This document shows, piece after piece, positions 8,904 through 60,841 of a stretch of 64,000 nucleotides of DNA. Each line of letters begins with the position of its first letter. The stretch's first letter is position 1. Origin of the DNA: Nitrospira sp. (GTDB taxonomy: Bacteria > Nitrospirota > Nitrospiria > Nitrospirales > Nitrospiraceae); NCBI GenBank assembly GCA_019636815.1, contig JAHBWT010000001.1, positions 62,001-126,000 of the forward strand. The letters run 5' to 3'. The notes beneath the pieces were generated by a model that saw only the letters and a program-made list of their open reading frames with translations, was not told the origin of the DNA and did no database searches. Position numbers and translations under genes: made by a program.

Positions 8904-9024
8904 GACCGTCCTCCTTCTTGTTACCAGCCCTCAAATTGCATAGGGTCGTTCTATCACGTGACTGTCATTTACAGGCTAGTGCGTCAGAAGGTTTTACATG
9001 CCTTCTCTCTCTTCTTCTTTATTC

Positions 9025-9039
9025 GCAAAATGCGCGCCA
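9025..9039 (-). promoter_or_regulatory. Sigma-54-like -24/-12 promoter
   Basis: The minus strand reads TGGCGCGCATTTTGC, matching TGGCACG-N4-TTGC at all but one position, with GG-N10-GC spacing. Predicted transcription would begin near 9013 and read the 42-aa membrane protein and then the BON gene. The tandem operator starts 109 bp upstream of the -24 GG. Confidence 0.65.
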
Positions 9040-9146
9040 TACGTCGATCGTGATGCAAGCCACTCATACTTTTATTCAGGCACAATGTTCATTAAGCTTT
9101 CGCAGGTAGGAGGCGGCTCAAGGCTGGACGGCCGGTCACATGTGAG

Positions 9147-9178
9147 GGACAAGTCGTCTTTGCGCGGAAGTTCTGTCC
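9147..9178. promoter_or_regulatory. Tandem 19-bp-period operator, copy A
   Basis: Two half-palindromic sites, GGACA-AGT-CGTCT and GGAAG-TTC-TGTCC, are separated by 6 bp. Length (32 bp) and internal spacing (5-3-5-6-5-3-5) are identical to copies near 12.3, 53.2 and 60.8 kb. Placement upstream of a -24/-12 box suits an enhancer-binding protein. Confidence 0.6.
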
Positions 9179-9766: not shown

Positions 9767-10207
9767 CTATTTCTTTTCCACTTCCACGACCTGCAGCTCA
9801 CTGGCGACATCTTTCACTCCCGCTTGATAGGCATCCACGATCGCACTTCGAACGGAGTCCTGATTGTGTACCGTTCCACTCAATGTGGCCGTACCGTCAC
9901 GAACCGCCACCTGGATACCACTAGCCTTGAGAAAGGGGCTCTTCGTGAGCTGGCATTCCACCGCTCTCTGCAGTTCAGCGTCCGATTTCCATTCCCAATC
10001 TCGGGTACCGCCGAGAGGACCGCGAGGCGACACGTCCTGACACGCCGTGTCAGCGCCATAAGACCAATTGTCATCCGGATACGGATAGTCATAAGCCACG
10101 AGGTCCCTCTTCATTTCCGACCCACGTGTTTCTCCTTGTACTTGAGCAAACAATGGAACGCCCAAACCGATTAGCGCGATTCCCAGTACCGTAATATTCG
10201 TGCCCAT
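9767..10207 (-). CDS. Exported BON-domain protein (copy 2)
   Basis: 146 aa with signal segment TVLGIALIGLGVPLFAQV. The chain then resembles copy 1 at 8227-8682: DWEWKSDAELQRAVECQLT, a BON core with VAVRDGTATLSGTVHNQDSV, and DAYQAGVKDVASELQVVEV. The two genes are tandem paralogues separated by two unrelated small genes. An envelope-associated role is inferred from the family. The sequence upstream has only a weak -24/-12 resemblance near 10314 and no tandem operator. Confidence 0.8.
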   Translation of the reverse strand: MGTNITVLGIALIGLGVPLFAQVQGETRGSEMKRDLVAYDYPYPDDNWSYGADTACQDVSPRGPLGGTRDWEWKSDAELQRAVECQLTKSPFLKASGIQVAVRDGTATLSGTVHNQDSVRSAIVDAYQAGVKDVASELQVVEVEKK

Positions 10208-10633
10208 TTTACTTTCTCCTTCTCAAAAGGATGTTTTAGATGAAGTTGCGCGGTCTATGGATCGTTTGAGCTCTCTTCGCTATCGGGCAGCCCGACTGAG
10301 AGCACAACAGCTGCGAGCTCACCACCCACACTGCGCCGTTTTCGATTGCGACAACATGGTGGCTACTCCTCTCTCTCACTTCTGTCTCCGACTGATGGGA
10401 GTGACGAAACAAGTTAATTTTCCAGAAGACCTGCAACCACCATACCAACAAATTTCTCGTGTCGACCTTCACATACCGCACGATCCAATCCTGATCGTCG
10501 CGATCGGCGCAATCAGGACATCACGCCTCAGGAACCATCCTTCGCCTTACCACAGATATCGCACCGTCCGGGTTTGGTCGCCGAAATACAACACGCGCAC
10601 GTTCCACACGTTCCAATTGATCGTCGGCACCAT

Positions 10634-10741: not shown

Positions 10742-11094
10742 GTTCATAAATTTTCTGCTAGGAGAAGGTGAGATACCGTTGGGATGCCCCGGCACAAAGT
10801 GAATCGTGGAGACGAACCTCACGGGAAGGTTGTACTGGCCACAAGCCTATCACCGCCTGTCATCCGAACGGACAGAATGTCTCACCGAGAAGTTCCGACG
10901 GAACTCCAGCTGGGCGTAGCAAGCCTTTTCTTTATGAATCCCGCTCATGAGTACGTCGCGTTTGTCAAAAACCGGAACGACAATGCGAGAAAGCAGATAG
11001 GCAATGACCCGACCGCGAAGGTCCGGTGACGTGCTGCGTGTCGGATGCTCACTGCTCGGTCAATCCGACTCACGTCAGAAGAAAGGGGGGCATC

Positions 11095-12168
11095 GTGAGA
11101 CCTCACGGTCACGGAAAGAGAAAGCCTGAAGTCGTCGTCGTGACGGGTGCTTCGGCTGGTGTCGGCAGAGCGATTGCGAAGGAGTTCGGCAAGCATGGCG
11201 CATCCGTTGTTCTACTGGCTCGCAGCCGAGATGGCCTGGAAGGAGCGAGACAGGATGTGGAACACGTCGGAGGCCGTGCGTTGCCCCTCCAGACCGACGT
11301 CTCCGACGACCGGCAGGTCGAGGCGGCCGCGGATCGAACGGAACGCGAATTTGGCCCTATTGATATATGGATCAACAATGCCATGGTTTCCGTCTTGTCT
11401 CCTGTACTTCGGATGACGGTGGCAGAATACCGGCGGGTGACGGAGGTCACATATCTCGGTTATGTCAACGGGACCTTGGCGGCGTTGCGCCGCATGTGGC
11501 CGCGAGACCACGGCGTCATCGTACAAATCGGTTCTGCCCTGGCATATCGATCCATCCCGCTGCAATCCGCCTATTGCGGCGCCAAACATGCGATTCAGGG
11601 ATTCACGGAATCGCTGCGCTCGGAGCTGATCCATGACGGGAGTAAAGTTCGCCTCACGATCGTTCAGTTGCCGGCGGTCAATACGCCACAATTTTCATGG
11701 ATCAAGACCCGCATGCCGCGTCACCCCCGGCCGGTGCCGCCGATCTTTCAACCGGAAGTCGTCGCCCAATCCGTGTACTGGGTCGCGCATCACCCTCGGC
11801 GCGAGTTCACAATCGGCTTGTCCGCGGTGCAAACCATCATCGGAAATAAATTCGTTCCCGGCCTGTTGGATCACTACTTAGCCGCTGTCGGGTACGAGGC
11901 TCAGCAAACACAGGTATCCGTGGATCCCAATCGCCCGAACAATCTCTATGACCCCGTGCCCGGTGATTATGGAACCAGAGGGCCGTTTGACGGCCAGGCC
12001 GCCACGTACAGTGTGCAAGCTTGGATCAATCATCACCGTGGTTGGCTGGCACTTGCCGGGGTGAGCCTCGCGGCTCTCTCTACTTTCTACCTGAAAGTTA
12101 GAAGGCATCCATCCAACAGAAGCGGTTTCCCATCGGTTCCGCTTCTCTTCAGCCGAACCGATGATTGA
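11095..12168 (+). CDS. Short-chain dehydrogenase/reductase with C-terminal membrane helix
   Basis: 357 aa from a GTG at 11095, chosen because AAAGGGGGG lies just upstream; a longer frame from 11026 has no ribosome site. Residues about 10-250 are a classical SDR: cofactor motif TGASAGVG, NNAMVS, catalytic Ser in GSALAYRS and YCGAK (Tyr/Lys pair). The C-terminal extension of about 100 residues ends in a hydrophobic helix (GWLALAGVSLAALSTFYL), so it may be membrane-anchored. The substrate is unknown. The gene lies upstream of cydAB but 444 bp away, with its own signals between. Confidence 0.85.
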   Translation: MRPHGHGKRKPEVVVVTGASAGVGRAIAKEFGKHGASVVLLARSRDGLEGARQDVEHVGGRALPLQTDVSDDRQVEAAADRTEREFGPIDIWINNAMVSVLSPVLRMTVAEYRRVTEVTYLGYVNGTLAALRRMWPRDHGVIVQIGSALAYRSIPLQSAYCGAKHAIQGFTESLRSELIHDGSKVRLTIVQLPAVNTPQFSWIKTRMPRHPRPVPPIFQPEVVAQSVYWVAHHPRREFTIGLSAVQTIIGNKFVPGLLDHYLAAVGYEAQQTQVSVDPNRPNNLYDPVPGDYGTRGPFDGQAATYSVQAWINHHRGWLALAGVSLAALSTFYLKVRRHPSNRSGFPSVPLLFSRTDD

Positions 12169-12295: not shown

Positions 12296-12327
12296 GGAAC
12301 GATTGTCCCGGAAACGACAACCTGTCC
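12296..12327. promoter_or_regulatory. Tandem 19-bp-period operator, copy B (cydAB)
   Basis: GGAAC-GAT-TGTCC and CGACA-ACC-TGTCC separated by 6 bp, giving the same 5-3-5-6-5-3-5 layout as the copies near 9.1, 53.2 and 60.8 kb. It lies 131 bp upstream of the -24 element of the cydAB promoter, a usual enhancer distance. Confidence 0.6.
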
Positions 12328-12457
12328 CATCATCCGCACATGAAGCGGTTTTTCCAAGACAACGGCGGTTCTGAGCCTGTCATCTCAGAATGAAAAGCCG
12401 GTGAGATGATGCAGTTTCACTGAGCCGGCGACTTCTTTTGGCTCTTTTTGTCATTGA

Positions 12458-12473
12458 CGGCATTTCACTTGCA
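12458..12473 (+). promoter_or_regulatory. Sigma-54-like -24/-12 promoter of cydAB
   Basis: CGGCATTTCACTTGCA has GG at 12459-12460 and GC at 12471-12472 (N10), with GGCA and TTGCA at the two boxes. The predicted start is near 12484, about 130 nt ahead of cydA. Confidence 0.6.
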
Positions 12474-12565: not shown

Positions 12566-12601
12566 ATGTCTATCCGACGACACATATTTCACGATTCCTG
12601 A
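12566..12601 (+). CDS. Possible 11-aa leader peptide upstream of cydA
   Basis: ATG at 12566 is preceded by AAGGGAGATGGGG, a good ribosome site. The frame encodes MSIRRHIFHDS and ends in TGA 11 nt before the cydA ATG. The cydA start itself has only a weak upstream purine stretch, so translation of cydA may be coupled to this leader. Confidence 0.35.
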   Translation: MSIRRHIFHDS

Positions 12602-12612
12602 CATACGGATTT

Positions 12613-13944
12613 ATGATCTCGGACCTCATTGCCGCTCGCTCTCAGATGGCCATGTCCCTCGGCTTTCACATCGTCTTTGCCGTCTTGGGCATTGCGATGC
12701 CGGTGTTAATGGCGGCCGCCGAGTGGCGCTGGCTGAAAACCAAAGATGAAGCCTATCTCGCGCTGGCGAAGCGCTGGTCGAAGGGGACTGCGATTTTGTT
12801 CGCCGTCGGCGCCGTGTCAGGGACCGTGCTCTCATTCGAATTGGGCCTCCTCTGGCCTTCCTTCATGGAGCGGGCCGGTCCCGTCGTCGGACCGCTCTTC
12901 GGGCTCGAAGGTTTTGCGTTTTTCACGGAAGCGATCTTCCTTGGGATCTATCTCTACGGGTGGTCGCGTCTTCCACCGCGCGCGCACTTTATCGCCGGCC
13001 TGATTGTCGCGGCGAGCGGCACCGCCTCCGCAATGTTCATCGTCACGGTGAATGCCTGGATGAACGCTCCGACCGGTTTTGACATCGTCAACGGAGAGAT
13101 CACCAACGTGCGGCCGTTAGTTCCTTTCTTGCATCCGTTCGCGTTTCATGAAACGTTGCATATGTTGCTTGCAGCCTTCGCCGCAACCGGATTGCTCGTC
13201 GCCGGTATCCACGCATTTCTCCTCTTGCGCCACCCATCGAATCAATTCCATAAGAACGCACTCGTCATCGCGCTCGTGGTCGGCGGCATTCCCGCAATCC
13301 TCCAACCGGCGAGCGGAGATCTGATCGCTCGGGCGGTCGCGGATCACCAGCCGGCGAAGCTGGCCGCCATGGAAGCACACTTCGTTACGGAAGCCGGAGC
13401 GGACTTCGTCCTCTTCGGACTTCCCGATGTCTCCTCACAAACCGTCGACTATGCCGTCGTGATTCCACACGGGTTGAGTCTTCTCCTGCATGGAAATCCT
13501 CATGCGATCGTTCCTGGGCTGGATCAGATCCCTCGTCAAGATTGGCCACCCGTCGCCGTCACTCATGTGGCCTTCCAAGTGATGGTTGTCTGTGGGCTGA
13601 TCATGGCTGGGATGACCATCTGGGCTGGCTGGCGCTGGTGGAAAGGACGGCTGGAAGAAGACCGATGGCTTTTACGCATGTTGCTCGCCACGGCGCCGCT
13701 GGGATTCATCGCCATCGAAGCCGGCTGGGTGGTGACCGAAGTCGGGCGTCAACCATGGATCATACAAGGACTCATGCGGACCTCTCAGGCCGTGACACCT
13801 ATGCCTGGCCTCTGGATTCCCATGGTGACCTTTTCGGCCTTGTATATCCTATTGGCAGGAGTCGTCGTGTGGGCGATCCGGCGTCATATCGCGGCCACCA
13901 TGGCCGTCTCGCCTGATCAAGGAGTAGGAAGGGACACGGCGTAG
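12613..13944 (+). CDS. cydA: Cytochrome bd quinol oxidase subunit I (short Q-loop, CioA type)
   Basis: 443 aa, multi-pass. Heme ligands align with the known enzyme: His19, the Glu99/Glu106 pair in LFGLEGFAFFTEAIF, His near 183 (FHETLHML) and a Met near 324. The signature GRQPW is at about 378-382. The Q-loop is short, as in cyanide-insensitive oxidases. With subunit II it oxidises quinol and reduces oxygen to water in the cytoplasmic membrane, usually with high oxygen affinity. It is followed directly by cydB. Upstream lie a sigma-54-like promoter and a tandem operator shared with other respiratory genes in the window. Confidence 0.96.
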   Translation: MISDLIAARSQMAMSLGFHIVFAVLGIAMPVLMAAAEWRWLKTKDEAYLALAKRWSKGTAILFAVGAVSGTVLSFELGLLWPSFMERAGPVVGPLFGLEGFAFFTEAIFLGIYLYGWSRLPPRAHFIAGLIVAASGTASAMFIVTVNAWMNAPTGFDIVNGEITNVRPLVPFLHPFAFHETLHMLLAAFAATGLLVAGIHAFLLLRHPSNQFHKNALVIALVVGGIPAILQPASGDLIARAVADHQPAKLAAMEAHFVTEAGADFVLFGLPDVSSQTVDYAVVIPHGLSLLLHGNPHAIVPGLDQIPRQDWPPVAVTHVAFQVMVVCGLIMAGMTIWAGWRWWKGRLEEDRWLLRMLLATAPLGFIAIEAGWVVTEVGRQPWIIQGLMRTSQAVTPMPGLWIPMVTFSALYILLAGVVVWAIRRHIAATMAVSPDQGVGRDTA

Positions 13945-13945
13945 G

Positions 13946-14974
13946 ATGCCCTCGTATGAGCTCATGGTCGCCGCCGCGCTGGTCGGCGCCCTTACGTTCT
14001 ATCTGTTATTCGGCGGAGCGGATTTCGGGGCGGGGATCTGGACTCTGTTTGCGATGGGCCGCCAAGGACAACCGCAACGAGCGCTCATCGATCAAGCGAT
14101 CGGTCCGATATGGGAAGCCAACCATGTGTGGCTCATCATCGCCGTCGTGATTCTCTTTACCGCGTTTCCTCCCGCCTTTGCCGTCATTTCTATCAGGCTG
14201 CATATTCCACTGACCGTGATGCTGATCGGGATCGTATTGCGAGGAACGGCCTTTGCCATTCGTACCCACGACATTTCCTCTCGCTCCGACGGATTCACCG
14301 GGGCTCCGCCGATTTGGCACCGAATATTCGCGTGGTCCAGTCTGATCACACCGACCATGCTGGGCATCATCCTTGGGGCAATCGCATCGGGACGTGCGTC
14401 CGGTCCGACCGACACCATTCGGGAAGCCTTTGTCGATCCCTGGCTCGCACCATTTTCCATCACAGTCGGCGTCCTCGCAACGGCTTTGGTCGCCTATCTC
14501 GCGGCCGTCTATCTGATCATGGAAAGCTCCGATCCGGAGTTACGCCGCCTCTTTCGACGTCGGGCCGTCATGAGTGGGATTCTCGTCATCATCCTGGCCG
14601 CCATCGCCCTGTTCCTCACGCATGATGGAGCGCCAGAAATCTATCGCGGGCTGGTACAAACAGCGCTGGGTCGTGCGACCGTGGTTGCCACGGCGCTGGT
14701 GCATCTGGCAGCCCTATGGGCGGTGATTACGGCACGCAATCTTCTGGCTCGATTCTTGGCGGGAGTTGGAGCCGTCGCCATTCTCTGGGGCTGGGCCCTG
14801 TCGCAGTATCCGTATCTTGTCGAGCCCTCGGTCACGATTTACGATGCGGCTCCTCACAGCACATTGGACATTTTACTGGCGAGTCTGCTTCTAGGATCCA
14901 TCGTTCTCCTTCCCTTTCTGTTTTACTTATACAAACTGTTCAAAGGGGATGTGCTCTTGCACCGTCACGACTGA
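13946..14974 (+). CDS. cydB: Cytochrome bd quinol oxidase subunit II
   Basis: 342 aa with about eight membrane helices. The family motifs GGADFGAGIW and PIWEANHVWLI are present in the first 70 residues and the length is typical. It starts 1 bp after the cydA stop, so the two form one operon. It stabilises the heme-bearing subunit I. No small CydX-like frame was found directly downstream. Confidence 0.95.
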   Translation: MPSYELMVAAALVGALTFYLLFGGADFGAGIWTLFAMGRQGQPQRALIDQAIGPIWEANHVWLIIAVVILFTAFPPAFAVISIRLHIPLTVMLIGIVLRGTAFAIRTHDISSRSDGFTGAPPIWHRIFAWSSLITPTMLGIILGAIASGRASGPTDTIREAFVDPWLAPFSITVGVLATALVAYLAAVYLIMESSDPELRRLFRRRAVMSGILVIILAAIALFLTHDGAPEIYRGLVQTALGRATVVATALVHLAALWAVITARNLLARFLAGVGAVAILWGWALSQYPYLVEPSVTIYDAAPHSTLDILLASLLLGSIVLLPFLFYLYKLFKGDVLLHRHD

Positions 14975-44657: not shown

Positions 44658-45977
44658 TCAAGGAGCCGGCTTCCCATCGTACGTAGCCCGTTCATCCTCA
44701 AGGGTCGTGACCCCGTAGATCAGGTATCCGTTATAGGCTCGGGCCGTCTCTCGCACCCAGCCCATGCTGAGCATCGTCAGCATGGCGCACAGGGCGACCG
44801 TGATGAGGATCTTTTGATTCCCGTGATCCTGGACGCTCATCACGCCGGTCTTCCACCAAGAAGCAGAACCAGTAAAGGAACGTAGAAAGAGGATCCAATT
44901 CAGTAGACCGAAGAACACGAGCGCCACGATCGCGAAATATTTGTTCGGCTGCATCTTACCGAGGGGATTGATCTCGGCGTCGGTCAGTCTCGAGAGGAAG
45001 GGAATATGTTGCAGATGATACGGCATGGCAAAGACCAGCCAGGCGATGATGAGCACCGCTAAGGACATCGGAAGGATTACGCGGGCGGCGCTGTCCGGTC
45101 TGCTGCTCGAACGGATAACGCGAAGCATATACAAGGACCCCAGCACGGCGATCAGTCCATAAAGCAGGGCGACCAGATCGAACAGCCAGGAGCGGGCACC
45201 GAGCATGAGTGTATGAAACGCTTGCGGTTCGGCGTACCGCACGTGCAGCAAATATTGATAGCCGATCACCGGCATGATCAAGAGCGCTCCGAATCCCACG
45301 CCGAAGCAGACTCCTCCGGCCCAGCGATAAAATCGGCGGTCTTCCTCAGCCCGAGCAAGGAGGAACGCGGCGCCGCACAAGGCCGCAATGGCAAATCCGG
45401 ACCACGTCAAGTTTCCGAACCACCGATGAAGGTCGAGATCGATCATGGTCGGATTCAAGATATTGGCCCACGACGAGTCAGTGGGATGCGGCGTCAACAT
45501 GTAGGACGCGGTGATATCGATAAAAAACATCGCCACCACCGCGCAGACGGCGGCAAGCCAACCGAATGCCAAATGAACGTTTCTGCGCCATCCTGCGGTG
45601 CTCGACCAGTCCCACAGGTAGTACCACGCATAGGCAAAGACGGCCTCGCCAAAGAACAAAAGTCCTTCCAGCACGAACGGCCAAAACATGATCCGAAAGA
45701 TCTTGTGCCAAAACTGAGGCCAGAATATGTTGAGTGCGAATACCAATGACACTCCGAAAAAAGAAATCGTGGCGGTGCTCACTACCAGAGCGAACGCGAT
45801 CATGTGCCCAAGCCTCCGATACCTGGGCTGATCCGTCATATGTGCCAGCGTCGCGACGACTGCACCGATCACCGCGCTGCCGACGACCAGCGTGGCGAAG
45901 AGACTATGGCTCAGCGCCGCCAAGGCAATGGCAACACGGCCGTATAGCATTGGCATGTTGAGTGGTTCGAGGTCCAT
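44658..45977 (-). CDS. Cytochrome bd-like subunit I, glutamate-containing paralogue
   Basis: 439 aa, about nine or more helices. His24 in ALSHSLFATLVVG corresponds to the bd N-terminal heme ligand. FVLEGLLFFGEAVFAYAWYY keeps both glutamates (104 and 111) at the 7-residue spacing seen in CydA. The GRQPW motif is absent and no CydB partner follows. It is the last gene of the complex-III-like cluster. It may be the heme-bearing oxidase or electron-exit subunit of a larger assembly; true oxidase activity is unproven. Confidence 0.78.
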   Translation of the reverse strand: MDLEPLNMPMLYGRVAIALAALSHSLFATLVVGSAVIGAVVATLAHMTDQPRYRRLGHMIAFALVVSTATISFFGVSLVFALNIFWPQFWHKIFRIMFWPFVLEGLLFFGEAVFAYAWYYLWDWSSTAGWRRNVHLAFGWLAAVCAVVAMFFIDITASYMLTPHPTDSSWANILNPTMIDLDLHRWFGNLTWSGFAIAALCGAAFLLARAEEDRRFYRWAGGVCFGVGFGALLIMPVIGYQYLLHVRYAEPQAFHTLMLGARSWLFDLVALLYGLIAVLGSLYMLRVIRSSSRPDSAARVILPMSLAVLIIAWLVFAMPYHLQHIPFLSRLTDAEINPLGKMQPNKYFAIVALVFFGLLNWILFLRSFTGSASWWKTGVMSVQDHGNQKILITVALCAMLTMLSMGWVRETARAYNGYLIYGVTTLEDERATYDGKPAP

Positions 45978-46000
45978 ACAAGTCCAACGAGTCCCGAAGG

Positions 46001-47257
46001 TTAAGGTGGATGCTCAGTTTGAGGAGGCTTACCTTTAGGCTGGTCCTCAACTCCTTGTCGAAATGCTGCGGGTTGCCTGGCCTCGTCATGAAGGGAGATG
46101 ACATTCCGCACGGTGTCCGGACGGCGCGCTGTCTCCCGGATGGTCCCCATCGTGAGGTACGTCATCACAGCAACCACCGCCAGAGCGGTGGAAAGGAAAC
46201 GAATGAACGGTCTCTGGTACCGTTCCGATGATGAGCCATCCGCCAGTAGGCGGCGGGCTCGGTACAGCACCACGGCGCTCAGCGCCACAAGAGCGAAGGT
46301 CCAGCCTCGCCGGAGATCCGGATCCGGATAGCCGACGGATAGCACCATCGCGAGTGCGAACGAGCCGGCAGCTACAAGGCGCCACCTCCCCGGCCTCCCC
46401 GCCGAAGATACGCGGTGAAGCCACACATGACTGCCGAGAAATAACGCGCCAATCAGTAGAAATTGAGCATAGATCCATGGCTGATAGGGTCCTTGTGTCA
46501 GTTGTCGATAGGCCTCCGGCGCGGACATGCTGATCGCCCGGGCATAGAGCAATCCGCTTAAGGGCTGAATCATCAGCATGATGAAGCCGATCAGTAGCCC
46601 CATCTTCAATAGGTGCACATAATAGTCGACGTCCTCCCCTCGCGCGGCGGCAAGCCGCCAAGCGGCATACCCCGCCATCACGTATCCGGCCATAACGAGA
46701 TTCCCCAAAAAACGATGTACGATCAGAGGAATCCAGGTCGGATTCGCGAGCCGGCTCCACACATCGTCAGCCGGCGCCGGGGTGAGCATGTACGACCCGA
46801 TTCCGTCGAGCACCGCGACCCAGATGAGCATGAGCAAGGCCGCGAGGAATCCGAGTGTCCGATGGATACCCGGACTCCTCGCGCGCAAGGCATCCCAATA
46901 ATGATAGTAGGGATAGAGCGCCAAGAGCTGGAGGAGAAAGGCAATCATGGCGACGTAGATCGGGTAGCGAAAGCGATTGAACAGATACGCGTTTGTCACC
47001 GGGAACAGCCCAATGAATAGTTGCACCATGATGACCGCCAACACCACGCTTGCCGTATAGGTGACGATCGTAAACCTCGTCATCGATCGGGCGGCGTCGA
47101 GCAACCATGGATGTCTTTCTCCCGCCCATTCGGCGGGCGGCGCGAGCATCATGAATCCGACCCCCAAACCGGCAAGAAGGATATGCAGCAGGGCGAATAG
47201 GCCAATCGCGAGACTGTTTCCGATCAGCGGGAATTCGATGCCAGGAAGTGTCGGCAT
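46001..47257 (-). CDS. Cytochrome bd-like subunit, divergent, no glutamate pair
   Basis: 418 aa, multi-pass, homologous in layout to the following gene (shared SYMLTPxPxD and WIPLIVHRFLGNL/ DLHRWFGNL segments). His25 is kept, but the helix that should carry the two glutamates reads YVAMIAFLLQLLALYPYYHY, with none. It also lacks GRQPW. It may have lost high-spin heme sites and become a structural or quinone-binding subunit. It lies 23 bp upstream of its paralogue and 32 bp after the ActDE stop. Confidence 0.72.
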   Translation of the reverse strand: MPTLPGIEFPLIGNSLAIGLFALLHILLAGLGVGFMMLAPPAEWAGERHPWLLDAARSMTRFTIVTYTASVVLAVIMVQLFIGLFPVTNAYLFNRFRYPIYVAMIAFLLQLLALYPYYHYWDALRARSPGIHRTLGFLAALLMLIWVAVLDGIGSYMLTPAPADDVWSRLANPTWIPLIVHRFLGNLVMAGYVMAGYAAWRLAAARGEDVDYYVHLLKMGLLIGFIMLMIQPLSGLLYARAISMSAPEAYRQLTQGPYQPWIYAQFLLIGALFLGSHVWLHRVSSAGRPGRWRLVAAGSFALAMVLSVGYPDPDLRRGWTFALVALSAVVLYRARRLLADGSSSERYQRPFIRFLSTALAVVAVMTYLTMGTIRETARRPDTVRNVISLHDEARQPAAFRQGVEDQPKGKPPQTEHPP

Positions 47258-47289
47258 AGTGGATATGGAGTCGGCGGACCAGCCTGTTG

Positions 47290-48309
47290 CTAGGGTTGAG
47301 ACAAGGATTTGACGTACATGACTACGGAGCGCCGCTCTTCGGCCGACATCTCACCTTTAAAGGGCGGCATCACATCTCTCCCATCGACCGACCGCCCATA
47401 CGTCACCGTATCGTAGAGTGCAGCCTCGGATAATGCCTGTACATCCGGAGCGAGGAGGTCGGTGGGTTTCTCCTTCAAATAGGCGATGACCAGACCGTTG
47501 CCTGTCCCGTCCATGCCATGGCAATGGGAACAGTTGATACGGAAGAGGCCGGCTCCTTCATCGACCAGCTGTTGAGTGGGCAGAGACTTTAGCACCGACC
47601 GGCTCTCTCGCGGCACCGAACCTACCGGTGAATGGAGGCGCGGCGCTTCTTGCGGCTGATACGACGGTTGCTCTTGCATATCGCGCGAACAAGCCTGCAT
47701 CCCGCACAAGCTCCAGGCCGCGACGAGGACGGCGGCGGTCACCCGTCCTTCTCGCTCCGCTCCATGCGGGACCGACGGCGTTGGATGGCGATGCCGGATT
47801 TCCAGCGCGCCGGTCTGTTGCAGAAGGTCCCGCACCATCTCGAACCGAGCCGAATCCGTCGGCAGAGAGAGGATCACCTCAATGAACCCATCATCGATGC
47901 GCGGATCGCGTTCGGCGGCGTTCCGGCTTTCCGACCGAATCCGGACGAGCATCGTTACGAACGTCGTGACGATCGCCACGAGCATCATAGTTTCAAAGGC
48001 GATAATGCCGAGGACCGGAGGGGCCACGATCGGTTTTTCTCCCGTTACGATGGGATACAGAAGCGCCGTACCTCCGGCGACCATGACCCCGAGGCTGATG
48101 CCCACCACACCAGCTATGATCGTGATAACGTGCAACGGGACACGTGCGGGACGCAGCAAAGCCGCCTTATGAAGCGGCAATGGAGAGAGGATCTCGACAG
48201 CGTCCTCCGGCACACCTGCGTCTCGGAGTTTCGCGACAAGCGACTCCAGATAGACGGACGGCTTGAAGAGAGCCCGCACCGTCATCTCATGTTCCGTGAC
48301 AGGACGCAT
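47290..48309 (-). CDS. ActD-ActE fusion: DUF3341 membrane domain plus monoheme cytochrome c
   Basis: 339 aa. Residues 1-175 match ActD (DUF3341): FKPSVYLESLVAKLRDAGVP and two membrane helices. Residues 190-339 match ActE: a signal-like helix (TAAVLVAAWSLCGMQAC), then a cytochrome c domain with CSHCH and distal Met in DVMPPFKGEM. In other organisms these are separate genes. A GTG at 47742, preceded by AGAAGGACGG, begins exactly at the second half in the same frame, so the cytochrome may also be made separately. It lies 7 bp after the ActC stop. Confidence 0.8.
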   Translation of the reverse strand: MRPVTEHEMTVRALFKPSVYLESLVAKLRDAGVPEDAVEILSPLPLHKAALLRPARVPLHVITIIAGVVGISLGVMVAGGTALLYPIVTGEKPIVAPPVLGIIAFETMMLVAIVTTFVTMLVRIRSESRNAAERDPRIDDGFIEVILSLPTDSARFEMVRDLLQQTGALEIRHRHPTPSVPHGAEREGRVTAAVLVAAWSLCGMQACSRDMQEQPSYQPQEAPRLHSPVGSVPRESRSVLKSLPTQQLVDEGAGLFRINCSHCHGMDGTGNGLVIAYLKEKPTDLLAPDVQALSEAALYDTVTYGRSVDGRDVMPPFKGEMSAEERRSVVMYVKSLSQP

Positions 48310-48316
48310 GAACGAG

Positions 48317-49660
48317 TCATTCCTTTTCCTCCCAGATGGAAATCACCGGGACGATCTTGACGGCCAGGGCATAGAGAAGGACCGCCAGCGCCAATGATCC
48401 GACGATGATGGTCATTTCCACCCAAGACGGGAAGTAGCTTCCCCAATTGAACGGCAATCGGGGATAGGACAATGGGGGCACCAGGATCAAGACACGTTCG
48501 ATGTACATTCCGATATTGATGAGGACGCCGATGATCATGACACCCAGCGGCCACTGGCGAAAGGCCGGGTTCGTCAAGGTGGCCAGCGGGAGGATGTAGA
48601 TGCAGGTCGCCATGAACCAAAACGGTACGGCAAACGGACCGGTCAATAACGCGTCCACCACCCACATGTGATCAGGAATGTTTGCGTACCAGATGGTGAG
48701 CAATTCGGCGAAATACAGATAGGCCAGGCTCAACGTCGTCACGAGCATCAACTTGGCCAGTTTGTCGAAATGCTCCGGCGTGATATAGTCATCGAGACGG
48801 TAGATCTTACGAAGAACGTACAGCCCGATCGCCACCAATCCCATACCGGAATGCACCGCGCCCACGACAAAATAGGGCGCGAAGATCGTCGAGTGCCACG
48901 CGGGCACCAGCGACACGCCGAAATCCCATCCGACGATCGAATGGACGGATATCATCACCATCACGATCAACGGCGTAATGATCCGCATGGCGGTTTCCAG
49001 GATCTGCCATTGGTTCTGCGTGCCGGTCCATCCGAGTGAGAGTACTCGGTACAGCGGTTTGCGCCAGCCACCGATTCGTTCCCGCAGCAGCGCAAAATCG
49101 GGGATCAGTGGCAGATACAGATAGATTGTACTGGCGGTCGCATAGGTGAAGACTGCTGTCGCATCCCACATGAGCGGCGACCGAAAATTCGGCCACATTT
49201 CCCGCTGATTAGGATAGGGAATCAAATAGTACCAGCGCCAGACGCGCCCCAGATGGTAGAAGACGAACAAGGTGGCGATTATCAAGGAAATGAAGGTCAT
49301 TAATTCGGCGATTCGCGTGACAGGCCTTCGCCACTCTGCCTTCGTCAGACGCAGCACGCCTGAGATGAATGTGCCTGAATGGCTTGCGCCGACCCAGAAG
49401 ATGAACGACGCGATATAGACCGCCCAAAAGATCGGCGGATGCAAATTGGTTTGCCCGATACCGGTTTGGACTTGATAGGTCCAGGCGCCGGCGCCGGCCG
49501 CCACAAGACAGGCCAGCACACCGATCAGCAGAAAATACGTCCAATGGGTCACGAGCAGGGGCGCCAGGAGTTCGTGATTGATCTTCGGAATCCGTTCCCA
49601 GTGTCTGTCCTCTTGTTCCATCTCCGCTCGTCTATCTGTCGTCCACGGTTTACCCAGCAC
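48317..49660 (-). CDS. ActC / NrfD-type quinone-interacting membrane subunit
   Basis: 447 aa with about ten helices. HPPIFWAVYIASFIFWVGAS and SHSGTFISGVLRL near the N-terminus, LAYLYFAELLTIWYANIP and MYIERVLILVPPLSYPRLP in the second half match ActC of alternative complex III (PsrC/NrfD family). It should hold the quinol-oxidation site. It begins 5 bp after the ferredoxin-subunit stop. Confidence 0.85.
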   Translation of the reverse strand: MLGKPWTTDRRAEMEQEDRHWERIPKINHELLAPLLVTHWTYFLLIGVLACLVAAGAGAWTYQVQTGIGQTNLHPPIFWAVYIASFIFWVGASHSGTFISGVLRLTKAEWRRPVTRIAELMTFISLIIATLFVFYHLGRVWRWYYLIPYPNQREMWPNFRSPLMWDATAVFTYATASTIYLYLPLIPDFALLRERIGGWRKPLYRVLSLGWTGTQNQWQILETAMRIITPLIVMVMISVHSIVGWDFGVSLVPAWHSTIFAPYFVVGAVHSGMGLVAIGLYVLRKIYRLDDYITPEHFDKLAKLMLVTTLSLAYLYFAELLTIWYANIPDHMWVVDALLTGPFAVPFWFMATCIYILPLATLTNPAFRQWPLGVMIIGVLINIGMYIERVLILVPPLSYPRLPFNWGSYFPSWVEMTIIVGSLALAVLLYALAVKIVPVISIWEEKE

Positions 49661-49665
49661 TGTCT

Positions 49666-50367
49666 CTATGTCAGCCGTTTCAAATAGGTCACGGCCGGAT
49701 GAGTCCCGACCGATTCCAGCAGATGAAAGGCGCGGTCTTGGCGGGCCAATTTTGAGACGCGGCTGTCGGGATCACGACGATCTCCGAATACCAATGCGGA
49801 GGTGGGACAGGTCTGGACGCAGGCCGGCGTGATATCGCCGTCACGGACAGGCCGGCCTTCCTTTTCCGCCCGCTCCTTGCCTTGCCGAATGCGTTGCACG
49901 CAAAACGTACATTTCTCCATGATGCCGTTCTGTCGGACCGTTACGTCAGGGTTGAGTTGTTCCGCCAACGGTTCATCCCAGTGCGGGTCGAACCAATTGA
50001 ATTGTCGCGCGGTATACGGGCAGTTGTTGCCGCAGTAACGGACGCCGATGCAACGATTGTAGACTTGGGCATTGAGCCCTTCGGGCGTGTGGTAGGAGGC
50101 GTAGACCGGGCAGACTGGTTCACACGGTGCGTCATCGCAATGTTGGCAGAGCACCGGCATGAACCGGGTACGGACATCGGGATACTCCCCTTCCCAGTAC
50201 CGCTCAATCCTGATCCAATTGATCGCGCGACCTTGCGCCGCCTCATCTTCTCCTGAAATGCGAACATTATTCTCAGCATGGCACGCCACGACACAGGCTT
50301 CGCAACCCGTACAGCGATCGAGATCAATGACCATCTCCCACTTGTGAGTTTTCTTTTCCTCGCTCAT
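49666..50367 (-). CDS. Four-cluster ferredoxin subunit (ActB2-like)
   Basis: 233 aa from ATG 50367, preceded by GGAGGAGG. Four cysteine groups bind Fe-S clusters: CTGCEACVVACHAENN, CQHCDDAPCEPVCP, CIGVRYCGNNCP and CTFCVQRI with CVQTCPTSAL. This is the DmsB/PsrB-type subunit; in alternative complex III it is the C-terminal half of ActB. Here ActB is split into two genes. The long frame upstream of this ATG is not preferred: it overlaps the molybdopterin-fold gene. Confidence 0.87.
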   Translation of the reverse strand: MSEEKKTHKWEMVIDLDRCTGCEACVVACHAENNVRISGEDEAAQGRAINWIRIERYWEGEYPDVRTRFMPVLCQHCDDAPCEPVCPVYASYHTPEGLNAQVYNRCIGVRYCGNNCPYTARQFNWFDPHWDEPLAEQLNPDVTVRQNGIMEKCTFCVQRIRQGKERAEKEGRPVRDGDITPACVQTCPTSALVFGDRRDPDSRVSKLARQDRAFHLLESVGTHPAVTYLKRLT

Positions 50368-50402
50368 AGGTTGCGCCTCCTCCTTCAGGATGTCCTCCGT
50401 TT

Positions 50403-52586
50403 TCAGTGCGGTTTGATCGTGATCAAGTTGCTCTCTTCTACTGTCGGCCGTTCGAGCATTGCCAGCCGTCCTTTCAAGCCGGTCTGCTCGATGCGAACCC
50501 TGGTGGCGCCTGCTGCGAGGGTTCCGGTCACAGTGTCCAGAGCCGGAGCCAGCAGCTCGGCGGGGTTCACACCTCGGTTTTTTGCGTACCGGCCATAGCT
50601 TGCATGGCCCTGTCCGAGCGGCATGGCCACGACATCGGGGCGGATGCCTGGGAAGAGTACGACCGAAGCAGTGAGCGATCCGAATGGCGACGTCACACGC
50701 ACGACATCCCCCTGAGCGATGCCCAGATCTCTCGCTGTCTTGGGATTGACTTCCACACAAGATCCCCACACGACCGTTGTCAATGTGTCGGGCAATTCTT
50801 GTAGCCATGGCCGATTGGCTCCCTCGCCATGACCGAGTGCCATCGAGGGGTAGGGATGAAGGACAAAGGGATATTCGTGTTCCTCTCCGAAGAAGACCGC
50901 CTGTTCGAATTCCCGCGACGGAGCGAAGTTTACGGGCAGCGCACGACGGCTTGGTCCTTGCCACCAGCCCCCCTGTTGCAGACTGGCGATCCAAGCGCTC
51001 TCAAACCAATCAGCCGTCTCATCATGAGGCTTGTCGGCAAGAAATGTTTTCCATCGTTCGCGCAGCAGGTCGTAGAATGTCGGGGCTTGCACGTACCCGA
51101 GGTCCAACCGGCGACTGAGATCAAGAATCGTGTCGCCGATTTGCTTCGTGTCATACAACGGTGTCACGACGGGCTGGGACAATCCAATGGTCTGTGTCGT
51201 GCTCTCGGCGACATGATCGCCCCACGACTCCAACATGTCTCGATCCGGTAGCAGGAGGTCGGCATACTCTGACGATTCGTCCAGAAATGAACCGAAGCTC
51301 ACGACGAAAGACGCCCGTTCGAACAATGCCTTGATCGGCACCGACGGCGGCATCGTAAAGAGTGGGTTGCAGCCATACAAAAGCAATGCTGGTCGAGCGT
51401 CGACCTCCTTCTGTTTCTCCACCAACTCGAACACCATCTGTTCGGTCAACCACGGGATCGAACGCTCAAGTCGCGTTTCGTCCTGTCGAAGGCCACGCGC
51501 CACGGATTCTCGCCCCATACTCGTGACCAGCGCGTTCAAGCCGTTGATGGCGATCAACGATATCGTGCCGTTCGTGTGTGAGCAGGCAGCGCCACCTCCG
51601 ATGGCGAGGGGAGCACGCGCGGAAGCGAAGTCGTGAGCCAGACGAGCGATGACGTCGCGCGCAACGCCCGTGGCGCTCTCGACTTCATCCAGCCGGACAG
51701 TGCCGTAGAATCCGCGGAACCGGTCTAGTACCTTCCCTGCCAATGCCGATAGAGGGGTATCGAGAATGAGCTGTCCGATCCCAAGGGCCAACATCCCTTC
51801 CGTGCCCGGGCGAATGGGAATCCATTGGTCGGCATTCACCGCAGTCACCGACATCCGAGGCTCAATGTGGATGTACCGGCCACGCACCGTCGTCCGGCCT
51901 TGCCGCATGTGTCCGAAGGCGATGCCCATAGCGACCGGCGACAGCCAGTGTTCGAGGAAAGGAGCGCCGAAGGACAGCAGATAATCCGCGTGAGCCAGAT
52001 CATAGAACGGTGAAGCGTCAGATCCCATGCTCTCATGCCATGCGGCATGCAGCGGCAACTCCGCGTCCGGCGCATAAAAGTAGAGTCTGCCACCGATTGA
52101 ATCCATAAAATCAGATAACAATCGGGCAAGGGTTCCGGACACCGGCCTTGTCACCATCATCGGCGGCTCACTGATATTTTGGAAGGCCTGCGTGCAACGA
52201 CGCAGACCTTCTTCCCATTCGAGTGGGATAAACGTCCCTTCCCCTCGAGGACCCTCTCGTTGAAACGGGTGCCGAAGCCGATCAGGGTTGTAGAGACTTT
52301 GTAACGAGGCTTGTCCTTTTACACAGAGTTTCCCGTGATTCACCGGATGGTCGGGATTGCCTTCGAGCTTCTTGGCTCGGCCTTCCCGAGTACGCACAAG
52401 CACGCCGCATCGGGCAACACATTCATTGCAGACGGAGGCATACCAATCGTCGACACCCGGTATAATCTCGTCGTCAGGCAAGAGGTATGGGATCAGATGA
52501 TCGACGTGCTGTCGGCATCCAGGCATGACCGATCCCACCGTGGCGAGAGCAGCCGTCTTTAAGAGCGTCCGACGTTTGACATTCAT
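50403..52586 (-). CDS. Molybdopterin-oxidoreductase-like subunit (ActB1-like)
   Basis: 727 aa. A twin-arginine signal (KRRTLLKTAALATVGSVMPG) implies export across the membrane. One N-terminal [4Fe-4S] motif (CNECVARCGVLV ... GKLCVKG) follows, then domains of the molybdopterin oxidoreductase fold (LLYGCNPLFTMPP; SSEYADLLLPDRDMLESWGD). In alternative complex III the corresponding domain usually carries no molybdopterin; whether this one does is not visible. It is 35 bp upstream of the ferredoxin gene. Confidence 0.85.
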   Translation of the reverse strand: MNVKRRTLLKTAALATVGSVMPGCRQHVDHLIPYLLPDDEIIPGVDDWYASVCNECVARCGVLVRTREGRAKKLEGNPDHPVNHGKLCVKGQASLQSLYNPDRLRHPFQREGPRGEGTFIPLEWEEGLRRCTQAFQNISEPPMMVTRPVSGTLARLLSDFMDSIGGRLYFYAPDAELPLHAAWHESMGSDASPFYDLAHADYLLSFGAPFLEHWLSPVAMGIAFGHMRQGRTTVRGRYIHIEPRMSVTAVNADQWIPIRPGTEGMLALGIGQLILDTPLSALAGKVLDRFRGFYGTVRLDEVESATGVARDVIARLAHDFASARAPLAIGGGAACSHTNGTISLIAINGLNALVTSMGRESVARGLRQDETRLERSIPWLTEQMVFELVEKQKEVDARPALLLYGCNPLFTMPPSVPIKALFERASFVVSFGSFLDESSEYADLLLPDRDMLESWGDHVAESTTQTIGLSQPVVTPLYDTKQIGDTILDLSRRLDLGYVQAPTFYDLLRERWKTFLADKPHDETADWFESAWIASLQQGGWWQGPSRRALPVNFAPSREFEQAVFFGEEHEYPFVLHPYPSMALGHGEGANRPWLQELPDTLTTVVWGSCVEVNPKTARDLGIAQGDVVRVTSPFGSLTASVVLFPGIRPDVVAMPLGQGHASYGRYAKNRGVNPAELLAPALDTVTGTLAAGATRVRIEQTGLKGRLAMLERPTVEESNLITIKPH

Positions 52587-52617
52587 GGAACTTTTACATT
52601 TATGAAAGATTTGATGG

Positions 52618-53142
52618 TTATTGGTGGCATGTCAAACAGTCCAGCGACGCACCGCGCTGTCGATGACAGGTAAGACACCAGCCCATTTCATAGCTGGCGG
52701 CACGCGGCGTATGTGACATCCGCTCCACATGTCCGTGGCAGTCGGTACAGTTCAAATCAGCTCTCACATGCATTTCATGGGAGAAATACACGAAGTCTGG
52801 CAGCCGCTGCAGCCGCACCCACGGTATTGGTTGTTGTTGATGCCAGTATCTCGATAGTGTTTGGGCCTCGGCGTTTTCTTCGATCAGATTGCCATGGCAG
52901 CTCATACAAAGTTGAACGGACGGGACACCTGCCGTCGCGGAAACGGCGGCAAAACGGTGGCAGTACAAACAATCCACTTGCAGTTGTCCGGCATGCCATG
53001 CATGGCTGAATGACACAGGCTGCATATCTTGGCTCTCCGAATCCGAACTGCCCGAGGAATAAAGAATGCCCACACCAGCCGTTATCACACCGGTAAACAG
53101 CAGCACGGATACGCCGCGCAGGATCGGGCTATGACTCATCAC
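52618..53142 (-). CDS. Pentaheme cytochrome c (ActA-like)
   Basis: 174 aa with one N-terminal membrane helix (GVSVLLFTGVITAGVGILY). Five CxxCH motifs are present: CLYCH, CMSCH, CTDCH, CLTCH and CLTCH. This is the ActA pattern of alternative complex III: a membrane-anchored periplasmic multiheme cytochrome accepting electrons from the complex. It is the first gene of the cluster. The start (GTG 53142 or ATG 53139) has no ribosome site, and the predicted sigma-54-type transcription start is only a few bases upstream, so the message may be leaderless or start further in. Confidence 0.87.
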   Translation of the reverse strand: MMSHSPILRGVSVLLFTGVITAGVGILYSSGSSDSESQDMQPVSFSHAWHAGQLQVDCLYCHRFAAVSATAGVPSVQLCMSCHGNLIEENAEAQTLSRYWHQQQPIPWVRLQRLPDFVYFSHEMHVRADLNCTDCHGHVERMSHTPRAASYEMGWCLTCHRQRGASLDCLTCHQ

Positions 53143-53211: not shown

Positions 53212-53243
53212 GGACAAGCTGTCCCTTCTCGGACAAGCTGTCC
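53212..53243. promoter_or_regulatory. Tandem 19-bp-period operator, copy C (best copy)
   Basis: Two perfect GGACA-AGC-TGTCC sites separated by CTTCTC. This is the most regular of the four copies and defines the consensus. It lies between sodC (whose 3' end faces it) and the cytochrome c gene that opens the complex-III cluster. Confidence 0.65.
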
Positions 53244-57144: not shown

Positions 57145-57503
57145 GATGCTCTCCTGTTTGCCTGATACTCCGATACTGTGTGGCATTCCGAATACTATCT
57201 GCCGACGTCACTTCATGATTCAGCAAAAACTCTGAAGCAACTTGCGAGCCGATGGCTATTCTTCAACATTCTGAGGATTTCTACGTCAAAATGAACAGGC
57301 TTTTCTCAAATCATGATGTCCAATCAGTCTTGCGAGGGACAGAATGCGCGGGAGCGGCGTCAGCTCTGGTGACGTGATAAAGTTCTCAGTAGTGGGCTGG
57401 CCTAAGCGCTTGGCCCCAGCGATAACGATATGGTCGCAGCTCCGCAGCACCGCCGTCGGGTTGATGGCGGCGCTGCTTGCGAACGCATTGAGCCACACTT
57501 CAC
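57145..57503. other. Region with one unrecognised small frame, 359 bp
   Basis: A GTG-initiated minus frame at 57286-57498 begins 5 bp after the stop of the SRPBCC gene and encodes 70 residues. The stretch AFASSAAINPTAVLR faintly recalls the DNA-binding end of Rrf2-type regulators, but other family landmarks are missing. It may be a relic. Nothing else was recognised. Confidence 0.3.
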
Positions 57504-60070: not shown

Positions 60071-60586
60071 TCATGCCGCCCGTCGTTGGTTGCGCGAGGA
60101 TTTTTGTTTCGCCATTCGCTCTTTGATACTCATTGCTTCCTGCCCTAATTCCTCCCAATCGATATCGGCTTGTTCCGTCTCGGGAAACATCTCCTTCTCT
60201 TCCTCTTCTATATGGTGTTTTACCAGTTCACTCAGTACTTTAAATTTAGTTTTATACCCCTTGGCCGATGCCTTCATTTTGTGAAGCTCTTTAATCAGCA
60301 ACCCCACGACATGGTGTTCTTCATTGGCCTCGTCAACCATATCCTCCTCTCCGGTCGCCTCGCGAATAGCAGGATACACAAGGCTCTCCTCGATCTTGGT
60401 ATGAATTTCCAAAGCCTTGAGCACCTTATCCGCAATCCCTTGCCGGGAACGACCATCCGCCTCTTCAAACGATGTGAACAGTTGTTCCACTTCTCGGTGA
60501 TCCTCTTTTAAAAGCTCCAGCGCGTTTACCGACTCTTGTTCCTGCATGTCATCCTCGTCTTGATCGAACGTGTGCTTCTTCGCCAT
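60071..60586 (-). CDS. Hemerythrin HHE-domain protein
   Basis: 171 aa from ATG 60586 with ATAAGGAGG upstream. Iron-binding residues of the four-helix bundle are visible in LKEDHREVEQLF, IHTKIEESLVYPAI, NEEHHVVGLLIKELH and VKHHIEEEEKEMFPE. Such proteins bind oxygen or NO, or repair Fe-S centres. The C-terminal tail is basic. Its upstream region carries a sigma-54-like promoter and the tandem operator shared with the oxidase genes, which fits an oxygen- or NO-related role. Confidence 0.92.
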   Translation of the reverse strand: MAKKHTFDQDEDDMQEQESVNALELLKEDHREVEQLFTSFEEADGRSRQGIADKVLKALEIHTKIEESLVYPAIREATGEEDMVDEANEEHHVVGLLIKELHKMKASAKGYKTKFKVLSELVKHHIEEEEKEMFPETEQADIDWEELGQEAMSIKERMAKQKSSRNQRRAA

Positions 60587-60689
60587 CACAACCTCCTTAT
60601 GTACTGGTTTTAATTGAGCTTCATCACGCTCTGAGCTTTTCTTCCTCCTCGCGTCTCGGTCCTCATCGCCGCGGACTGAGCTTTCAACT

Positions 60690-60704: not shown

Positions 60705-60809
60705 GCGGTTTTTCGGTGGCTTCAAGAAATCTCGCGCTTTGGCCTTGAAAACATGAACCCGCCTCGCCCCCACAGCTCTTCTCCGATGAACCAGGTAACG
60801 GTGTCACGG

Positions 60810-60841
60810 ACAATCTGTCTAATGACGGACAAACTGTATCG
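60810..60841. promoter_or_regulatory. Tandem 19-bp-period operator, copy D
   Basis: GGACA-ATC-TGTCT and GGACA-AAC-TGTAT separated by 6 bp, in the same 32-bp layout as copies A-C. It faces hemerythrin on one side and the LuxR-type regulator on the other, so either or both could be controlled. Confidence 0.6.

Follow-up and report, generated by a model that had tools for sequence, protein, structure and literature searches.

The window analysed here, a stretch of 64,000 nucleotides of contig C1 (138 kb) from a Nitrospira genome, carries adjacent genes for the two subunits of a cytochrome bd oxidase, preceded by a short-chain dehydrogenase (SDR) gene. As in a canonical cytochrome bd oxidase, both CydA and CydB are encoded, and the CydA translation contains the GWxxxExGRQPW motif as AGWVVTEVGRQPW; cydA orthologues (73–87%) occur in seven same-genus genomes. 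The 445-bp gap between SDR and cydA holds an operator and a -24/-12 element, both on the + strand. The features of the locus are as follows.

11026–12168, + strand: SDR gene (Pfam adh_short), the upstream neighbour of cydAB and, by synteny, in one operon with it in several relatives
12296–12327, + strand: tandem operator, the proposed site of an enhancer-binding protein, with an exact TGTCN8GACAN3TGTC at 12304–12326
12458–12473, + strand: sigma-54 -24/-12 element CGGCATTTCACTTGCA, assigned by spacing and matrix score
12484, + strand: predicted transcription start, placed by sigma-54 promoter geometry 12 nt after the C (12472) of the -12 GC
12613–13944, + strand: cydA, cytochrome bd oxidase subunit I, 443 aa (Pfam PF01654, 5.6e-142)
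13946–14974, + strand: cydB, cytochrome bd oxidase subunit II, 342 aa (Pfam PF02322, 5e-67)

Just 5′ of cydA, whose own ribosome site looks weak, lies an 11-codon open frame, MSIRRHIFHDS (12567–12602), with a good ribosome site, and the two are possibly translationally coupled. A TGTC-N8-GACA palindrome at 12567–12582 was also considered and set aside as probably due to chance.

The cyd operator reads GGAACGATTGTCC-CGGAAA-CGACAACCTGTCC. It consists of two 13-bp palindromes of the form RGACA-N3-TGTCY, the first of them degenerate, spaced 19 bp centre to centre, and the consensus over all members is RGACA-N3-TGTCY-N6-RGACA-N3-TGTCY. We know of no earlier description of this tandem operator. A search pattern with N4 between half-sites 2 and 3 was abandoned, as it missed the cyd operator, which has N3, and a NorR-like GT-N7-AC reading was dropped because the wider tandem consensus fits all members. 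TGTCN8GACAN3TGTC occurs four times in the window and in none of 100 shuffles. With a leave-one-out matrix the cyd operator scores 25.1 bits, against a background in simulated sequence of about one match per Mb at 12 bits or more. The whole genome (4.01 Mb) has eight exact matches to the core pattern, seven of them on contig C1; this clustering of one regulator's operators in a single region, matched by regions in three relatives (G001, G004 and G006), would fit a regulon that has been brought together in an island. Among 79 same-genus genomes, 13 have 3 to 16 exact operators and the others 0 to 2, the range also given by a reversed control pattern.

The earlier note had described a -24/-12 box of GGCA and TTGCA, correctly spaced and 131 bp downstream of the tandem operator, and the letters bear this out on both counts. 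GGCA (12459–12462) and TTGCA (12469–12473) form GG-N8-TTGC, the sigma-54 spacing, and the 131 bases from 12328 to 12458 separate the operator from GGCA, a distance of +150 bp centre to centre. NtrC-type systems likewise have tandem palindromic sites 100–200 bp upstream of a -24/-12 promoter. The genome also encodes an intact RpoN, as one complete 501-aa ORF with AID, CBD and DBD domains, so that -24/-12 spacing, an activator site at enhancer distance and the sigma factor of a sigma-54-dependent promoter are all present. Transcription from the predicted start would give cydA a leader of about 129 nt.

The 445 bp upstream of cydA cannot be aligned with the corresponding DNA of its orthologues except at the start of cydA; only the elements recur, and footprinting was therefore done on the elements. 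Of the eight same-genus genomes with this type of cydAB, seven (G000, G001, G004, G006, G063, G064 and G065) have a strong operator of 20–31 bits ahead of cydAB, its operon or its divergent neighbour, and all eight encode the candidate activator described below. In N. moscoviensis NSP M-1 (G003, NZ_CP011801.1) the cyd operator is degenerate; this genome encodes the activator too and has 16 exact matches to the operator. Arrangements differ from genome to genome. In G004, G006 and N. moscoviensis, cydAB follows ASRT and SDR genes (G004 and G006 also have an AI-2E transporter gene there), and a strong -24/-12 site lies roughly 40–65 bp before the ASRT start. In G001, cydAB comes after PRC-barrel and HAD/HerA genes, behind an operator and a -24/-12 site. 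The operator precedes SDR-cydAB in G063 and lies between cydA and a divergent gene in G064 and G065; in these three genomes neither cydA nor the SDR gene has a good sigma-54 site directed at it. Given these arrangements, the link between operator and cyd genes persists while gene order changes.

The same comparison bears on the alternative that survives best, in which cydAB is mainly co-transcribed with SDR from a promoter before SDR and the intergenic sigma-54 promoter is minor or condition-specific. Short gaps separate the neighbouring SDR and cydAB genes in G063, G006 and N. moscoviensis, and in G004 and G006 SDR and cydAB form one run with the ASRT and AI-2E genes. Moreover, the SDR-cydA gap of the window has no terminator-like site, so readthrough from SDR could also express cydAB. 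The window has the promoter directly before cydA, where most relatives have it ahead of other cyd-operon genes, so that such readthrough could add to cyd expression here. Nonetheless, the gap contains a full operator with a correctly placed -24/-12 element, and in three relatives (L065:6653, L069:5958 and L070:6782) the promoter ahead of the operon is of the sigma-54 type too and has an operator, so co-transcription would leave the regulatory logic unchanged. We regard this alternative as unlikely, while giving it some weight.

The gene for the protein most likely to act at the operator is also on contig C1, lying 17 kb upstream of the cyd operator and about 5–6.5 kb before the start of the window (C1:62001).

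C1:55472–56923: NtrC-type activator, 484 aa, with receiver (PF00072), AAA+ (PF00158, with GAFTGA) and Fis-type HTH (PF02954, HTH_8) domains

These are the domains of an NtrC-type enhancer-binding protein, and NtrC, ZraR and AtoC likewise have a receiver, an AAA+ domain with GAFTGA and a Fis-type HTH. The best-scoring NCBIfam model, AtoC, reaches 500 bits where the cut-off is 714, so that among the matches listed the protein passes the cut-off of no named regulator. Orthologues (about 75–87% identity) occur in 14 same-genus genomes, the next proteins, which are paralogues, reaching at most 52%. We called genomes operator-rich if they had at least three exact matches within the genus, or at least two outside it. 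Within the genus the activator is present in 13 of 13 operator-rich genomes vs 1 of 66 others (13/0/1/65; Fisher 5e-14), and in the rest of the order outside the genus the same test gave 22/2/18/92 (Fisher 2e-12); kinship is uncorrected in both tests, and the p values overstate independence. The sole exception among the 79 genomes, G033, has the activator without being operator-rich, and carries non-exact operators at the activator gene. For 13 of the 14 orthologues an operator (15–31 bits, mostly above 23) lies no more than about 0.6 kb from the activator gene or inside its 3′ coding end. The genome studied here has its own at C1:56829–56860, 5 kb before the window, and most orthologues have a 23–27-bit site inside the 3′ coding end (L141–L153), sometimes with a sigma-54 site just beyond; in these the gene for the regulator itself contains a regulatory site. 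No conserved kinase was found beside the activator in the 1.5 kb compared on either side.

About 30 sigma-54 activators are encoded in the genome, and a second factor of equal distribution would be compatible with the co-occurrence. The operator and promoter might accordingly be real and a different enhancer-binding protein bind them, but the activator at C1:55472–56923 goes together with the operator in all but one of 79 genomes, and it is in or adjoining this gene that operators are found across the family. We consider binding by another protein improbable.

Taken on its own, the cyd -24/-12 box is at chance level, and without the operator it would be insignificant. Its match is modest (12.1 bits, with C instead of T at the first position), GGCAN6TTGCA is seen once in the window where 0.68 are expected, and with our approximate sigma-54 matrix, built from the general consensus, about eight other sites in the window score as high or higher and about nine reach 12 bits or more. 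The box is convincing because the tandem operator accompanies it. To relate the two elements we took about 80 operators from 13 genomes, using approximately 1.2 kb around 73 operator places in relatives together with those of the genome itself. Sigma-54 matrix matches pointing away from the operator numbered 72 at +50 to +200 bp vs 5 at -50 to -200, and 60 of the 80 operators had a sigma-54 site at 50–250 bp; chance operators in activator-less genomes had none at that position (0 of 7). A matrix-free count of GG-N8-TTGC, with the cyd site left out, gave 92 away from the operator vs 7 toward it. Other GG-TTGC spacings showed no asymmetry like that of N8; a smaller excess at N9 (23 vs 7) is probably due to GGG overlap. 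At +150, the cyd box falls inside the +50 to +200 peak.

The chance level of the box by itself would also fit a random -24/-12 match beside a real operator, at which the activator uses another form of polymerase or represses. That reading is very improbable, as the position and orientation of the cyd box lie inside a peak set by other operators and 92 vs 7 leaves chance little room. In model bacteria cyd genes are usually controlled by sigma-70 with ArcA, FNR or Rex, and general knowledge would favour the same here, but a search between SDR and cydA yielded no sigma-70 promoter clearly above chance, the lone match (9/12) overlapping the cydA start codon, and this explanation is scarcely credible.

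We conclude, from sequence comparison, that cydAB is very probably transcribed from the sigma-54 promoter at 12458–12473 and switched by an NtrC-type activator at the tandem operator, most likely the C1:55472–56923 protein. The earlier note's proposal that cydAB is under sigma-54 and an enhancer-binding protein is supported by the recurrence of the operator with a -24/-12 site, the co-occurrence of the activator, and operators at the activator gene and at other cydAB loci. The elements, their recurrence and pairing and the co-occurrence with the activator are computational observations. From them we infer binding, looping, phosphorylation and a direct action on cydAB in vivo, as follows. The promoter at 12458–12473 would be silent until the activator acts. 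A phosphorylated NtrC-type response-regulator ATPase would bind the tandem operator at 12296–12327, loop to sigma-54 polymerase at the promoter and remodel it, with transcription beginning at about 12484. Respiratory and stress genes would form a regulon switched on by this activator.

Two further operators of the same type as the cyd operator lie in the window ahead of candidate target genes.

53212–53243, no strand assigned: second operator, 34.5 bits
53155–53170, - strand: weak -24/-12 element AGGTCTACTCCTTGCA, 8.2 bits, immediately ahead of the next gene
44658–53142, - strand: respiratory operon encoding a QrcA-like multihaem cytochrome c, QrcB-like molybdopterin, Fe-S, NrfD and ActD/cytochrome c proteins and two CydA-like proteins
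60808–60839, no strand assigned: third operator, 30.0 bits
60689–60704, - strand: -24/-12 element GGGCAGAGTTTGTGCA, 9.7 bits, upstream of the hemerythrin gene
60071–60589, - strand: hemerythrin HHE-domain protein, 172 aa (Pfam PF01814, 3.8e-17), a proposed regulon member with similar targets in other genomes

The two CydA-like proteins (44658–47257, - strand) are encoded at the end of the Qrc/ActD-type operon and show only partial similarity to Cyt_bd_oxida_I; the pair resembles the bd-like oxidases described for Nitrospira (PMC8115632). Elsewhere on the contig, operator targets include genes for a DUF326 protein, a PLD/VTT protein and PRC-barrel proteins, and the targets in relatives are ASRT, TPP enzyme, ferritin, NuoA, trehalase-like, isoamylase-type, CBS, DUF4142, Slp, BON and ADH genes.

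Several other -24/-12 sites in the window deserve mention. TGGCGCGCATTTTGCG, from 9039 on the - strand, and a weak operator at 9147–9178 (8.4 bits) lie together within 9024–9178 and precede a run of BON, transaldolase, GAPDH and LigD genes (8682–4052). A weak operator at 57318 (9.7 bits) adjoins CGGCTCGCAAGTTGCT (57251, 12.1 bits; 57236–57349, - strand), which precedes a 183-aa ORF without a Pfam match. The best -24/-12 site of the window, TGGTATGGTGGTTGCA (10432–10447, - strand, 15.4 bits), is upstream of a BON-domain gene (9767–10207), and no clear operator is found near it.

The target list resembles a stress or stationary-phase regulon with respiratory genes, and suggests low oxygen, starvation or redox stress as a guess at the signal. 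RpoS-type stationary-phase regulons of E. coli include osmY, slp, poxB, ferritin-type genes and appCB. The genes under the operator are alike in kind, with BON, Slp, TPP enzyme, ferritin, glycogen-type enzymes and a bd oxidase, and the difference is that sigma-54 takes the place of sigma-S. The genome also encodes an RpoS-like sigma-70 protein that falls short of the RpoS cut-off (327 vs 379 bits), and we therefore do not claim that RpoS has been replaced.

Compared with the cydAB genes of model bacteria, the target controlled by ArcA, FNR, Rex and sigma-70 is the same, a quinol-oxidising cytochrome bd; the difference lies in sigma-54 and an ATP-dependent activator, with one weak sigma-70-like site. 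Sigma-54 control of cytochrome bd is a rare and unusual case, and it recurs in relatives. In the literature we searched, with incomplete coverage, we found no description of cydAB under sigma-54 control in Nitrospira. For E. coli, the table of one ChIP study gives the sigma-54 sites near cyd genes intragenic-style labels (PMC4591121).

Tentatively, and as a suggestion that could well prove wrong, we propose that in the Nitrospiraceae a regulon for general stress and respiratory remodelling, RpoS-like in content, is under one sigma-54 activator. Cytochrome bd and the Qrc/ActD/CydA-like operon, as the end of the respiratory chain that reduces oxygen, would then be switched in concert with genes for ferritin, hemerythrin, the envelope and carbon storage. 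Members of Nitrospira are the chief oxidisers of nitrite, and some oxidise ammonia completely. To our knowledge, little has been established about their switching between terminal oxidases, and routine genetics for them is not known to us. A named operator, promoter and activator are now available for testing, including in the cultivated N. moscoviensis.
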